Source: Litchfieldia alkalitelluris (GTDB lineage: Bacteria > Bacillota > Bacilli > Bacillales > Bacillaceae_L). Taken from it: a stretch of DNA of 64,000 nt. How positions within the stretch are numbered: the first letter of the stretch is position 1; each line of letters starts with the position of its first letter. Location: positions 529,148-593,147 of the forward strand of contig NZ_KV917374.1 in assembly GCF_002019645.1 (NCBI RefSeq), given 5' to 3'. A model generated the notes under the pieces. That model was not told where the DNA came from and ran no database searches. It saw only the letters and a list, made by a program, of their open reading frames with translations. Positions 13,582-62,975 of the stretch are shown here, one piece after another. The translations under genes and the position numbers were made by a program.

Positions 13582-14035
13582 GTCGAAGCTGTGCTCCTGT
13601 GTGGTTGTCTGAATGCTTTTACTGATACTGAAAGCCGAAGAGGGAACGAAAGACGTTGTCAGATTCCCTTGCTGGTGGCAAAAGTCGAAAAAAGGGAACG
13701 AAAGGTGCTGTCAGATTCCTTTACTGGTGCTAAAAGTCGAAGAAAGGGAACGAAAGGTGCTGTCAGATTCCTTTACTGGTGCTAAAAGTCGAAGAAAGGG
13801 AACGAAAGGTGCTGTCAGATTCCTTTACTGGTGCTAAAAGTCGAAGAAAGGGAACGAAAGGTGCTGTCAGATTCCTTTACTGGTGCTAAAAGTCGAAGAA
13901 AGGGAACGAAAGACGTTGTCAGATTCCCTTGCTGATGTCAAAAGTCGAAGAAAGGGAACGAAAGACGTTGTCAGATTCCCTTGCTGATGCTAAAAGTCGA
14001 AGAAAGGGAACGAAAGGCGCTGTCTGAATCTCGAT
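13582..14035 (+). repeat. Tandem array 1, 52-bp unit, about 8 copies
   Basis: The motif AAAGTCGAAG recurs at 13681, 13733, 13785, 13837, 13889, 13941 and 13993, exactly 52 bp apart, with degenerate units at both ends. Each unit contains AAGGGAA paired with TTCCCTT (or TTCCTTT, one G-T pair) across a 15-18 nt loop containing TGCTGTC or CGTTGTC. Because 52 is not a multiple of 3, the array cannot encode a repeated peptide, and the open frames running through it are accidental. It fills the gap between icmF and the rpoE promoter. Confidence 0.92.
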
Positions 14036-14098
14036 TGATCTTTGTGGTGCCATCCAGCACTTGAAGTTGTTATCAATGCTTCTCAACTTTTTGTGATT

Positions 14099-14126
14099 TT
14101 TACATTTTTTCGAGATTATGTATAAT
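14099..14126 (+). promoter_or_regulatory. rpoE promoter
   Basis: TTTACA (14099-14104) and TATAAT (14121-14126) with a 16-bp spacer, 144 bp before the rpoE start and just after tandem array 1. Sigma-A type. The long A+T-rich leader contains no other clear element. Confidence 0.6.
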
Positions 14127-14270
14127 AAGGTAGCATAAACTAGTTGATTTTGTTTATAATGAATGATATGTGTATTCTAGGACAAATATGGCAACAGCTT
14201 TGTACTACATAAATTTTAATCATATTACATATTAGTAAATGAATTTTTACAATTGAAAGGGAGTGCCTTC

Positions 14271-14849
14271 ATGGCTGTGGAACAATACTCACCAGAACAA
14301 TTAAAAGAAATGTCAATGCTAGAGGTTGCATATCTAGTATTTAAAAGTAAAAAGCAAGCAATCACATTTAATCAATTATTAGATGAGGTTGTTGGGATAT
14401 TAGGTCTTTCCAAGGCGCAAGTGAACTCAAAGGTTGCTCAATTTTATACAGATATCAACATCGACGGTCGTTTTATTTGTATCGGTGAAGCTGGTTGGGG
14501 ACTTAGAAGCTGGTACCCATATGAGCAAATAGACGAAGAAGTAACAACACCAATCAAGCCTAAGAAGAAGAAGGCTAAAAAAGCAGCAGAAGATGATGAT
14601 TTAGATGTATTAGATTATGACGAAGAAGAATTAGATTATGATGATTTAGATGAGTACGAAGAGGAAGATCTTGATGAGGATCTTGATGAAGAAGACGACG
14701 ATGATGCAGATGAAGTTGATGCTGATTTCGATGAAGATGATAGCTTCGACGATGAAGAAGATGAGCTTGTCGAGGAAGAAGATGAGTTTGAACTAGAAGA
14801 TGATCTTGATGAAGAAGAACTAGATGAAGAGGAAGATGAAGAACTCTAA
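14271..14849 (+). CDS. rpoE: RNA polymerase delta subunit RpoE
   Basis: Accessory polymerase subunit of Firmicutes that speeds enzyme recycling and raises promoter selectivity. 192 residues: an N-terminal HARE-HTH fold (residues 1-80) with [20 protein letters not shown] and [16 protein letters not shown], then a Lys-rich linker KPKKKKAKK and a roughly 90-residue almost purely Asp/Glu tail, the disordered RNA-mimicking region. The tail is somewhat longer than in B. subtilis (173 residues in total). TTG at 14253 is also in frame, but AAAGGGAG lies 8 bases before ATG 14271. Downstream pyrG is the conserved neighbour. Confidence 0.96.
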
Positions 14850-14857
14850 GTCACATC

Positions 14858-14886
14858 TTGACTTTTTAAAACGGACTATGTACAAT
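14858..14886 (+). promoter_or_regulatory. pyrG promoter
   Basis: TTGACT (14858-14863), a 17-bp spacer and TACAAT (14881-14886). The start point 7-8 bases later falls on GGGC (14894-14897), the initial sequence known to permit reiterative G addition in pyrG leaders. Confidence 0.9.
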
Positions 14887-14893
14887 ACTTTTT

Positions 14894-14970
14894 GGGCTCT
14901 ATAAAAAGAGTGATGATTACATTTAATGTTTCGCTCCCTTACATTTGTAAGTGGAGCGTTTTTATTTTTA
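14894..14970 (+). promoter_or_regulatory. CTP-sensing pyrG attenuator (reiterative transcription type)
   Basis: The leader starts GGGCTC at 14894. A terminator follows: CGCTCC (14932-14937) pairs with GGAGCG (14953-14958), with inner TTAC/GTAA pairing, then TTTTTATTTTT. The 5' strand holds the pyrimidine run CGCTCCCTT. In B. subtilis, low CTP stalls polymerase at C4, extra Gs are added to the nascent 5' end, and the G run pairs with this CUCCCUU to prevent termination. All required parts are visible here. It probably also stops rpoE transcripts. The remaining 195 bp to pyrG show only the ribosome binding site. Confidence 0.88.
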
Positions 14971-60398: not shown

Positions 60399-60445
60399 AA
60401 GTAAAACACTATTAGTTTTTTAAATGCAAGTTAGGAGGGAAAACG

Positions 60446-61858
60446 ATGACAAAAGGACGAGTTACTCAAGTAATGGGTCCTGTTGTAGACGTAAAGTTTG
60501 ACAGCGGACATCTTCCTGAAATTTACAATGCCCTTGTAATCGACTATAAGTCAAGTGATGTTGAAATTAAACTAACACTTGAAGTAGCGATTCATCTTGG
60601 TGATAATACAGTTCGTACTGTTGCTATGTCGTCAACAGATGGTCTTGTACGTGGAGTGGAAGTAGTAGATACAGGAAAAGCAATTTCTGTACCAGTTGGT
60701 GATATAACTCTTGGTCGTGTTTTCAACGTTCTAGGAGAAAACATCGATTTAGATGAGCCGATTGGACCAGAAGCACGTCGTGATGGTATTCACCGTGAAG
60801 CACCAACATTCGAACAACTTTCAACTGAGGTTGAAATCCTTGAAACTGGTATTAAGGTAGTAGACTTACTTGCACCATATATTAAGGGTGGTAAAATCGG
60901 TCTATTCGGTGGTGCCGGTGTAGGTAAAACAGTTCTTATCCAAGAACTTATCAATAACATCGCACAAGAGCACGGTGGTATCTCGGTATTCGCGGGTGTA
61001 GGTGAGCGTACTCGTGAAGGAAACGACTTATACTACGAAATGAAGGACTCTGGTGTTATTAACAAAACAGCAATGGTATTCGGACAAATGAACGAGCCAC
61101 CTGGAGCACGTATGCGTGTTGCATTAACAGGTCTTACAATGGCTGAATATTTCCGTGATGAGCAAGGACAAGACGTTCTATTCTTCATCGATAATATTTT
61201 CCGTTTCACTCAAGCAGGTTCTGAGGTATCAGCCCTACTTGGACGTATGCCATCTGCGGTAGGTTACCAACCAACTCTATCTTCTGAGATGGGTAAACTA
61301 CAAGAACGTATTACTTCTACAAACGTAGGATCGGTAACATCGATTCAAGCGATTTACGTTCCTGCCGATGACTATACTGACCCAGCACCAGCAACAACTT
61401 TCGCTCACTTAGATGCTACAACTAACCTTGAGCGTAAGCTTTCTGAAATGGGTATCTATCCAGCGGTGGATCCATTAGCATCTACTTCTCGTGCACTTGC
61501 ACCTGAGATTGTTGGAGAAGAGCACTATAATGTTGCTCGTCAAGTACAGCAAACATTACAACGTTATAAAGAATTACAAGATATCATCGCAATCCTTGGT
61601 ATGGATGAGTTAACTGATGAAGACAAATTAGTCGTTCACCGTGCTCGTCGTATCCAATTCTTCCTATCTCAGAACTTCCACGTTGCTGAGCAGTTCACTG
61701 GACAAAAAGGTTCTTATGTACCTGTTCAAGAAACTGTTAAAGGCTTCAGAGAAATTCTTGATGGTAAATATGATCACTTACCAGAGGATGCATTCCGTCT
61801 AGTTGGTCGTATTGAAGAAGTAATTGAATCTGCTAAACGTATGGGTGTTGAAGTTTAA
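60446..61858 (+). CDS. atpD: ATP synthase F1 subunit beta
   Basis: Catalytic subunit. 470 residues: [20 protein letters not shown], Walker [15 protein letters not shown] (about residues 152-165), catalytic Glu in [13 protein letters not shown], Walker [21 protein letters not shown] and the DELSEED equivalent here reading [17 protein letters not shown] precedes the ATG. Confidence 0.99.
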
Positions 61859-61882
61859 TAAAGGGACGTAGGAGGGTATAAA

Positions 61883-62287
61883 ATGAAGACAGTTAAAGTA
61901 AGTGTCGTAACTCCTGATGGCCCAGTTTATGAAGCTGACGTGGAAATGGTGGTTGCTCGTGCTCAAAGTGGTGAGCTAGGTATCCTTCCAGGACACATTC
62001 CAATGGTTGCTCCTCTTCAAATTGGGGCAGTCCGTTTAAAAAAAGCTACCAACACTGACCTTGTTGCTGTTAGTGGGGGCTTTCTAGAAGTTCGTCCTGA
62101 TCAAGTAACGATACTCGCTCAAGCAGCTGAAACAGCTGAACAAATCGACATACGTCGTGCTGAAGAAGCAAGACAGCGTGCGGAGCAACGTTTACAGGCG
62201 AAACAAGACGATATCGATTTTAAACGTGCGGAGCTTTCTCTAAAGCGTGCCATCAATCGTTTAAACGTAACTCAAAACAAATATTAA
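61883..62287 (+). CDS. atpC: ATP synthase F1 subunit epsilon
   Basis: Regulatory subunit inhibiting ATP hydrolysis. 134 residues: N-terminal beta sandwich with [40 protein letters not shown] and [18 protein letters not shown], then a C-terminal helical hairpin rich in Arg and Ala. AGGAGGG precedes the ATG. Last gene of the operon, followed by a strong terminator. Confidence 0.97.
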
Positions 62288-62290
62288 GTT

Positions 62291-62322
62291 AAAAACCTAA
62301 AGACTAGTCTTTAGGTTTTTTA
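62291..62322 (+). terminator. atp operon terminator
   Basis: A 30-bp perfect palindrome: AAAAACCTAAAGACT (62291-62305) followed by its exact complement AGTCTTTAGGTTTTT (62306-62320). Confidence 0.95.
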
Positions 62323-62414
62323 TTGTGTAGAAATATGGTTAAACGGAGCAAATAGATGAAACAGCAAATATATTATTATAATTGTGAGCAGTACAATTTG
62401 GTTGTATCATAAAT

Positions 62415-62975
62415 TACTTCAAAGGAGCGTCAAGTCCCGGTGTATGATCAAAAATCCAGCGAGGCGGCCGTCAAGTCCCGATGTAAGACTAAAAATGCGG
62501 CGGGTTCCGAATGAAATCGGGCCAGATGGAAGACAAATCGGGCGGGAATCAAGGTCAATCCGGCGAGTCGCGCGTCAAGTCCCGGTGTATGATCAAAAAT
62601 CCGGCGGGTTCCGAATGAAATCGGGCCAGATGGAAGACAAATCGGGCGGGAATCAAGGTAAATCCGGCAAGCCGGGCGTCAAGTCCAGGTGCTAGATTAA
62701 AAATCCGGCGGGTTCCGAATGAAATCGGGCCAGATGGAAGACAAATCGGGCGGGAATCAAGGTAAATCCGGCAAGCCGGGCGTCAAGTCCAGGTGCTAGA
62801 TTAAAAATGCGGCGGGTTCCGAATGAAATCGGGGCAGATGGAAGACAAATCGGGGGGGAATCAAGAGAAATCCGGCAAGCCACTCAGCATAACCGCTGTA
62901 AGATCAAAAATCCGGCGAACCGCCTTTCACGTCAGGGTACAAGGTCAAAAATCAAAAATCCGGCAAGCCACTTAG
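62415..62975 (+). repeat. Tandem array 5, 104-bp unit (2 x 52), about 5 copies
   Basis: GGCGGGTTCCGAATGAAATC recurs at 62603, 62707 and 62811 (104 bp apart), with worn copies at 62499 and before and after. Landmarks: CCGGCGGGTTCCGAATGAAA, TCGGGCCAGATGGAAGACAA, ATCGGGCGGGAATCAAGG, AAATCCGGCAAGCCGGGCG, TCAAGTCCAGGTGCTAGATT. It aligns to the 104-bp unit of 41410-42250 over its whole length without gaps. It starts about 95 bp after the atp terminator. Short frames across it are accidental. Confidence 0.93.

Follow-up and report, generated by a model that had tools for sequence, protein, structure and literature searches.

Mycobacterial MIRU repeats are intergenic and commonly have units of ~53 bp. 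In Staphylococcus aureus, the passages of PMC3532100 on which we draw describe the Staphylococcus aureus repeat (STAR) as intergenic direct repeats present at many loci, with a conserved core, locus-specific spacers and a function given as unknown; the tandem units measure ~50 nt and belong to one family, built of one 14-bp motif and spacers of 40-44 bp. Bacterial interspersed mosaic elements (BIMEs) bind gyrase, and the sequence between the repetitive extragenic palindromes (REPs) of BIME-1 binds IHF, according to the relevant part of PMC2817692. At the scale of whole genomes, prokaryotic DNA has an A-tract periodicity of 10-11 bp that portions of PMC3940949 link to curvature and to nucleoid-associated proteins, and eukaryotic satellites of nucleosomal length have a typical unit length, with curvature, dyads and inverted repeats reported in the sections of PMC8122249 that concern them. 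Here we describe a set of tandem arrays in Litchfieldia alkalitelluris, a bacterium whose genome measures 5.43 Mb in two contigs. The window, by which we mean the whole stretch of 64,000 nucleotides analysed (contig NZ_KV917374.1 of assembly GCF_002019645.1, positions 529,148 to 593,147), holds five intergenic arrays, A1 to A5, and a first-pass annotation of it had proposed that they share a pitch of 52 or 104 bp while their sequences are mostly unrelated. Our results show that this pitch rule of 52n is real, and wider than was first stated.

A pitch of whole helical turns

All five arrays were recovered, at the pitch proposed for each, when Tandem Repeats Finder (TRF) was run across the window; it found no other array there with a period above 24 bp, and 20 Markov-1 resamplings of the window gave no row with a period of 30 bp or more. 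Three arrays have units of 52 bp: A1 (13618-14024, 7.9 copies; family III, with a unit of the AAGGGAAcG...gATTCC type), A2 (16953-17236, 5.5 copies; family II, ATCATAGG...CTATGAT) and A4 (50399-52293, 36.4 copies; family I, TTCGGACAGCTTT...AAAGCTGTCTGAA, with an outer hairpin span of 41 bp). The other two, both of family IV, have units of 104 bp: A3 (41440-42239, 7.7 copies), with four GGC[GC]-type motifs per unit, and A5 (62452-62881, 4.1 copies), with an AAATnCGGC motif and degenerate units that continue to ~62975. When unit lengths are measured from an anchor word in each array, the interval is 52 bp in 7/7 cases in A1, 5/5 in A2 and 34/35 in A4 (the remaining one being 56), and 104 bp in 6/6 cases in A3 and 3/4 in A5 (the remaining one being 41). 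The first pass had described the pitch as exact apart from two slips: the 4-bp slip corresponds to the one unit of 56 bp in A4, close to its right end (approximately 52252-52307), and the 3-bp slip could not be located. Motif copies in A3 are spaced 21-21-21-41 bp within each 104-bp unit, with almost no exceptions, and the same spacing prevails in A5 and in two further arrays of 104-bp units (stretches L040 and L091), which rules out a base period of 26 bp for these units. Nor is the layout that of a CRISPR, with repeats and unique spacers: the entire unit repeats at 89-92% matches.

The rule extends to the rest of the genome, which we sampled as 60 stretches of 20 kb taken at regular steps, together with the window (1,264,000 bases). 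In this sample, coding arrays and the window included, TRF found 24 arrays at 52 bp, 2 at 51 and 1 at 53, followed by 4 at 104, one each at 103, 105, 154 and 156, and 2 at 311; every remaining period above 30 bp was seen once at most. By TRF, the 52-class comprises 37 arrays and 19,045 bases, or 1.5% of the sample. Autocorrelation of the noncoding DNA in the same 1.264 Mb passes, on this sample, the genome-wide test asked for in the first pass, with 33 segments at lag 52 versus 7 at lag 51 and 3 at lag 53, and with harmonics at 104 (32 segments), 156 (23), 208 (23), 260 (17) and 312 (16); the coding filter used for this count, and for a 400-kb test set of other genomes, also discards some real arrays (those of stretches L206 and L215). 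Searches of the whole genome gave 227 overlapping matches for the family of A4 (40 of 45 candidate places scored), 115 for that of A1, with stretch L078 as query (40 of 58), and 57 for that of A2 (40 of 43), while A3 found its own locus only. Spread on plasmids or phages was considered and rejected: the unit of A4, the one family queried, has no match in either collection.

The first pass had read 52 bp as five turns of the helix, and two kinds of evidence support this reading. The first is the distribution of periods. We brought together the sample described above, 80 named loci, 20 upp stretches, samples of two sister genomes and the test set, and kept arrays of at least 2.4 copies and 60 bp, with a period of at least 15 bp, excluding coding multiples of 3 (a filter that drops two 51-bp arrays of the sister genome G002). 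The 96 noncoding arrays obtained form 76 blastn families, whose base periods are 20 (7 families), 21 (9), 40 (6), 42 (4), 51 (2), 52 (19), 80 (2), 83 (1), 104 (7), 106 (1) and 156 (1), with single families at 26, 36, 37, 39, 43, 44, 50, 60, 77 and 115 bp and seven more at 166 bp or above; blastn leaves some known kin apart, so that the variants of family I, or families II and III, are counted here as several families. Among the 68 families with base periods of 15-130 bp, the periods gather at multiples of 10.45 bp (R=0.74), and jittering them by up to 6 bp gave no equally good set in 2000. Once the 52-class is removed (n=39), the best fit becomes 10.2 bp (R=0.60), again equalled by 0/2000 jittered sets. 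Two classes emerge, one of two turns (20-21, 40-42 and 80-83 bp) and one of five (52, 104 and 156 bp). Arrays of the two-turn class, with periods of 20, 40 or 80 bp and up to 34 copies, are found in other Bacillaceae, at L140:16365-17234, in L142, where the array is located after pyrG, and at L259:9941-10492 and L259:15895-16427, the last two carrying a motif of the ATTTGCGTCG type.

The second kind of evidence lies inside the units, where A/T steps are phased at 10.4 bp as a class average. For AA/TT the fifth harmonic (10.4 bp) amounts to 0.129 in 21 unit representatives versus 0.058 in 6,232 intergenic 52-mers (0/5000 resamplings), for WW steps (A or T at both positions) to 0.155 versus 0.078 (p=0.0002), and for W/S to 0.083 versus 0.048 (p=0.005); G+C is 0.46 in the units versus 0.35 in intergenic DNA. 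When each lineage contributes one value (n=16, that is, the 11 sequence clusters described below and five more, three of them also separate among the blastn families), all three indicators have their largest mean at the fifth harmonic. In WW this harmonic comes first in 9/16 lineages and among the top four in 14/16, a 53-bp and a 51-bp family being the two exceptions. Within the window, the signal is clear in A1 (WW rank 1) and A3 (1 of 52) and fair in A2 (3) and A5 (3 of 52).

Kinship, turnover and the constancy of pitch

The claim that the sequences are unrelated stands in part. Families II and III, those of A2 and A1, align at 30/52 positions in one register (0/3000 shuffles as good), and A3 aligns with A5 at 57/104 (0/1000 shuffles as good), whereas family I, that of A4, is without kinship to II (22/52, p=0.40) or III (20/52, p=0.92). 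By these alignments the five arrays form three lineages, A1/A2, A3/A5 and A4 alone. Beyond the window, the 40 arrays with a 52-bp consensus found in our sample and in the 80 named relatives fall into 11 clusters (of 16, 12 and 4 arrays, and eight singletons) at a threshold set above the maximum of 1500 shuffled comparisons; eight of the 48 segments were excluded, four of them runs of N and four with 104-bp units (A3, A5, L040 and L091).

These data bear on the idea that all 52-bp arrays inherited their length from a single ancient unit whose sequence then diverged, which the first pass had considered for the five arrays of the window. Such descent would explain the resemblance of II to III and of A3 to A5, as well as the family-I-like units present in L103, L121 and G002. 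We nevertheless find it quite improbable, given that family I matches neither II nor III and that the eleven clusters remain apart. Moreover, indels do arise in the units (in 18/413 units of family I and 39/227 of family III), so the length would hardly have outlasted such divergence without constraint. Stretch L103 comes from a record named Chryseobacterium sp. ISL-80; it shares 81% IcmF identity with the host and carries a family-I-like array, so the genus name of the record is probably wrong. The nearest named IcmF relatives, at 83%, are Ferdinandcohnia quinoae (which the record spells Fredinandcohnia) and Bacillus sp. REN16, which places the host in the Bacillaceae.

The fate of these indels suggests that pitch is constrained. 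Family I keeps a pitch of 52 in 27/27 arrays, despite sequence differences in loops and spacers: 17 indel types versus 553 substitution types are seen inside its arrays, and between arrays (26 unique consensuses) 380 differences include no pitch change, when 11.7 would be expected (p=0.00015). Family III has a pitch of 52 in 26/27 arrays and of 51 in one, with 31 indel versus 266 substitution types inside arrays and, between arrays (24 unique consensuses), 153 differences with one pitch change for 17.8 expected (p=0.000017). Family II, with 5 arrays that show no indels, is uninformative in this respect. We take the deficit of fixed pitch changes as fair, though not final, evidence for constraint, which would reflect selection. 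The first pass had offered selection or the copying mechanism as what sets the pitch: the former gains from pitch changes being fixed less often than substitutions, and the latter, in the form of an enzyme that amplifies by measuring off a set length, is not supported, because no footprint of such an enzyme turned up, because families of 51 and 53 bp exist and because the one open reading frame (ORF) inspected that resembles a REP-associated tyrosine transposase (RAYT) adjoins repeats of 37 bp.

Comparison with two genomes of the same genus, G001 and G002, shows that the sequences turn over within the genus. A search with family I found nothing in G001, and G002 gave 2 weak matches. In G001 the gap between upp and the protease gene, which houses A4 in the host, holds an array of ~103 bp with a four-copy spacing similar to that of A3, 40 replacing 41 and the motif being different, and the gap between atpC and nuoA, which houses A5, holds an array of 106 bp (2 x 53); in G002, TRF found no array in either gap. 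A 220-kb sample of G001 contains noncoding arrays of 52, 104, 106, 311 and 330 bp, and a 130-kb sample of G002 contains arrays of 51, 51, 52, 77 and 122 bp, of which the 52-bp one is weakly family-I-like and the two 51-bp ones are of other sequence. Between sister genomes, then, the pitch is mostly within 1-2 bp of 52n, with 77 and 122 as exceptions, while the sequence differs.

Further afield, an array of the 52-class is present in 12 of the 80 named loci, including Mesobacillus, Robertmurraya, Lederbergia and several Bacillus records. In the 700 bp 3' of pyrG, the site of A2, some repeat reaching 1.8 copies or more occurs in 16/76 relatives; the periods seen there include 52, 104, 156, 60, 42, 40 and 20-21 bp, and also 17, 19 and 246. 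The region 3' of nuoA in many relatives (L177-L196) has repeats with many Ala and Lys codons, with periods of 18-138 that are mostly multiples of 3; these are probably coding. The test set, 400 kb from twelve other genomes of the same family or order, yielded eight arrays with a period of at least 30 bp, all of 40-42 or 80-83 bp. Since it contains no array of the 52-class, the five-turn class is patchy among Bacillaceae; elsewhere, some of these genomes do carry arrays of 52-53 bp (stretches L184 and L186).

Selection on pitch or a mechanism that sets it

The explanation that we favour, tentatively and as something a little short of probable, is that these are satellite-like arrays held in helical phase by selection on their pitch, serving as platforms for nucleoid proteins or supercoils. 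The unit would be made of whole helical turns, five in A1, A2 and A4 and ten in A3 and A5, and the A/T steps that recur every 10.4 bp across the class would keep equal sites facing the same side of the DNA for 0.3-2 kb, so that the phased stretch itself would be the functional object. A nucleoid protein, HU-like or another, might bind cooperatively on this face, and/or plectonemic supercoils might place their tips at the phased arrays; we infer that the arrays would work in one of these ways, offering a nucleoid protein or the tips of supercoils a platform along a single face. Such platforms would sit at the boundaries of transcription units, and local amplification and homogenisation would turn the sequence over while selection holds the pitch. 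A bolder version, possible but in our view doubtful, is that there is a bacterial class of satellites selected on pitch alone, in which any sequence recurring every five (or two, or ten) turns with A/T in phase builds one-faced platforms, and in which families replace one another at the same intergenic sites.

The placement of the arrays is biased. With gap orientation taken from simple ORFs of at least 90 amino acids (aa), the 32 gaps of our sample that hold arrays comprise 11 convergent, 17 tandem and 4 divergent ones. Convergent gaps are in excess, at 11/32 versus 59/417 among the other gaps of at least 150 bp (p=0.005; 70/449 for all gaps of that size). In the window, where genes were named from Pfam and NCBIfam, A1 lies between icmF (+) and rpoE (+), A2 between the convergent pyrG (+) and a beta-lactamase-domain gene (-), A3 between a NERD-domain gene (-) and an MntP-type gene (+), which are divergent, A4 between upp (+) and an S8 protease gene (+), and A5 between atpC (+) and nuoA (+). 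Along the chromosome, family I looks sparse by eye at 2.2-3.9 Mb, in the half opposite dnaA (357.8 kb), among 40 scored places, and families II and III do not look sparse there, among 40 scored places each; on an impression by eye from 40 places per family, we do not claim that the arrays mark macrodomains.

The main rival is a neutral one, in which amplification sets the pitch. Duplications would favour points whole turns apart, in looped or protein-juxtaposed DNA, through topoisomerase action or through replication-repair errors, and the arrays would be neutral once formed. This would account for the occurrence of several helical multiples (20/21, 40/42, 52, 80/83 and 104 bp) and for the turnover of unit sequences within the genus. 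We judge it unlikely, though with a serious claim to attention, because multiples of three, six and seven turns are missing or nearly so, because indels inside arrays seldom reach the array consensus, and because a duplication rule alone would not give the class-wide phasing of A/T in the units.

Predicted curvature moves the balance in the direction of this rival. In a wedge model, the mean net bend predicted for 29 family representatives is 6.5 degrees per turn versus 3.45 for their own shuffles at the same pitch and 3.06 in 519 intergenic windows. Among the window arrays, predicted curvature is above shuffles in A3 alone (p=0.004). Static curvature, which holds as a class mean, at about twice the value of the shuffles, and is not seen in 4/5 window arrays, thus lacks support as a common principle, and phasing is better supported than static curvature. 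The result for the window makes selection for a platform, and with it the bolder version, slightly less likely and a pitch set by mechanism slightly more so.

Several further points weigh against selection on pitch. When each derived base is counted once, the deficit of pitch changes has p=0.10 in family I and p=0.023 in family III; the arrays share ancestry, which makes the count of pitch changes generous; and the unbiased sample and the window supplied 9/27 arrays of family I and 7/27 of family III, the remaining ones having been found with a four-unit 52-bp query that possibly favours a pitch of 52. The wedge angles are provisional values, curvature reaches p<=0.05 in 14/29 representatives, and in the window it does not exceed shuffles in A1 (p=0.61), A2 (0.35), A4 (0.56) and A5 (0.12). 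That three-, six- and seven-turn multiples are absent or almost so is not something that pure phasing predicts. Among the families of 51 and 53 bp, two (L184/186 and L125) lack the 10.4-bp signal, and the signal is weak in A4, where its WW rank is 7 of 26. A prediction fixed beforehand, that arrays of 45-60 or 95-110 bp in the test set would mostly measure 51-53 or 103-105 bp and be phased at 10.4 bp, failed in its first part, as none was found in the 400 kb of twelve genomes. Finally, divergent gaps are not significantly depleted of arrays (p=0.20).

It is rare in bacteria for unrelated sequences to follow one length rule, and this suggests a physical ruler made of the helix and its binder. 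If the pitch is selected, the arrays would give a handle on how Gram-positive nucleoids position bends and supercoils, and a clean experiment is possible, in that pitch can be altered while the sequence stays.

Hairpins, transposases and described repeat systems

In family I, opposed arms recur every 52 bp. The commonest outer span of the hairpin is 41 bp in every array listed, with a few single or double occurrences of 37, 40, 42 and 45 bp; a variable hairpin geometry at fixed pitch was rejected, the apparent variation being traced to arm length. The first pass had extended hairpins to every unit, which is wrong, and had listed phased cruciforms among its possible readings, which is not supported as a common principle: in many of the 52-bp families found elsewhere, inverted repeats are no better than in shuffles, and A3 and A5 show spaced motifs instead.

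Hairpin arrays could act as RNA if they were transcribed, as terminators, attenuators or sponges, and in most arrays of family I one arm does pair through G-U on one strand. However, this strand matches that of the flanking genes in 5 of the 14 arrays that could be scored (those with co-directional neighbours and the same wobble in more than 50% of units), hairpins are absent from many families, the genes on either side of A3 are divergent, and Rfam at its gathering threshold has no match in the arrays, all of which makes action as RNA very improbable. A hairpin read in the transcript of the neighbouring gene was rejected on the same 5/14. The sole Rfam match in the window is an L31-Firmicutes ribosomal protein leader (RF03156) at 30494-30527.

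Family I also recalls BIMEs in its opposed arms, and the arrays might be REP- or BIME-type elements spread by a RAYT. The genome has 8 Y1_Tnp matches, one of them in the RAYT-like ORF of 265 aa (L043:18179-18976, at ~848.2-849.0 kb of the host genome), and family II shows short scattered matches of ~1-2 units, a sign of dispersal. Yet the REP-like repeats that adjoin this ORF (L043:19057-19199, of the GGAAGC..GAGAACCGTCCC type) differ from the arrays in sequence and in their 37-bp length, which indicates that a REP-like system of another pitch coexists with the 52-bp arrays. Many 52-bp families are without a strong palindrome, and the 27 regions of family I each have at least 3 hairpin units by the rule of the scan, which included no search for single copies. 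We give this origin only a slight chance. A 39-bp array (L043:13680-13805) lies 4.4 kb away in the same stretch. The window itself contains, at 20679-22270, an IS200/IS605-like element with a broken Y1 transposase (two stops within one match) followed by a TnpB-like ORF (21065-22270) that scores below the curated NCBIfam cut-off.

Full-text searches of the open-access literature, outside which most subscription papers lie, turned up no paper on bacterial arrays of 52 bp or on a rule of whole helical turns for tandem repeats in bacteria, and we regard the novelty of the rule as provisional. Family I is STAR-like in that its arms are nearly constant and its two spacers array-specific (27 arrays); the STAR core T(G/A/T)TGTTG(G/T)GGCCC(C/A) has no match in the window at up to 2 mismatches, and whereas STAR is one family, here unrelated families keep one pitch. 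With REPs and BIMEs the arrays share an extragenic position and, in family I, arms of alternating orientation, but they are not tied to one palindrome, their pitch of 52 bp is exact, and a separate REP-like/RAYT set exists in the genome. As in the A-tract periodicity of whole genomes, runs of A/T are in phase with the helix; unlike it, the phasing lies in tandem arrays whose unit is an integral number of turns. The rule might also bear on the size, of ~50-58 bp, of other bacterial intergenic repeats such as STAR and MIRU. Eukaryotic satellites have in common with these arrays tandem units of a typical length, but ours are bacterial and short, with five turns in place of the length of a nucleosome and no particle known. 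If a class defined by pitch alone does exist, it would be the bacterial counterpart of the nucleosome-length satellites.

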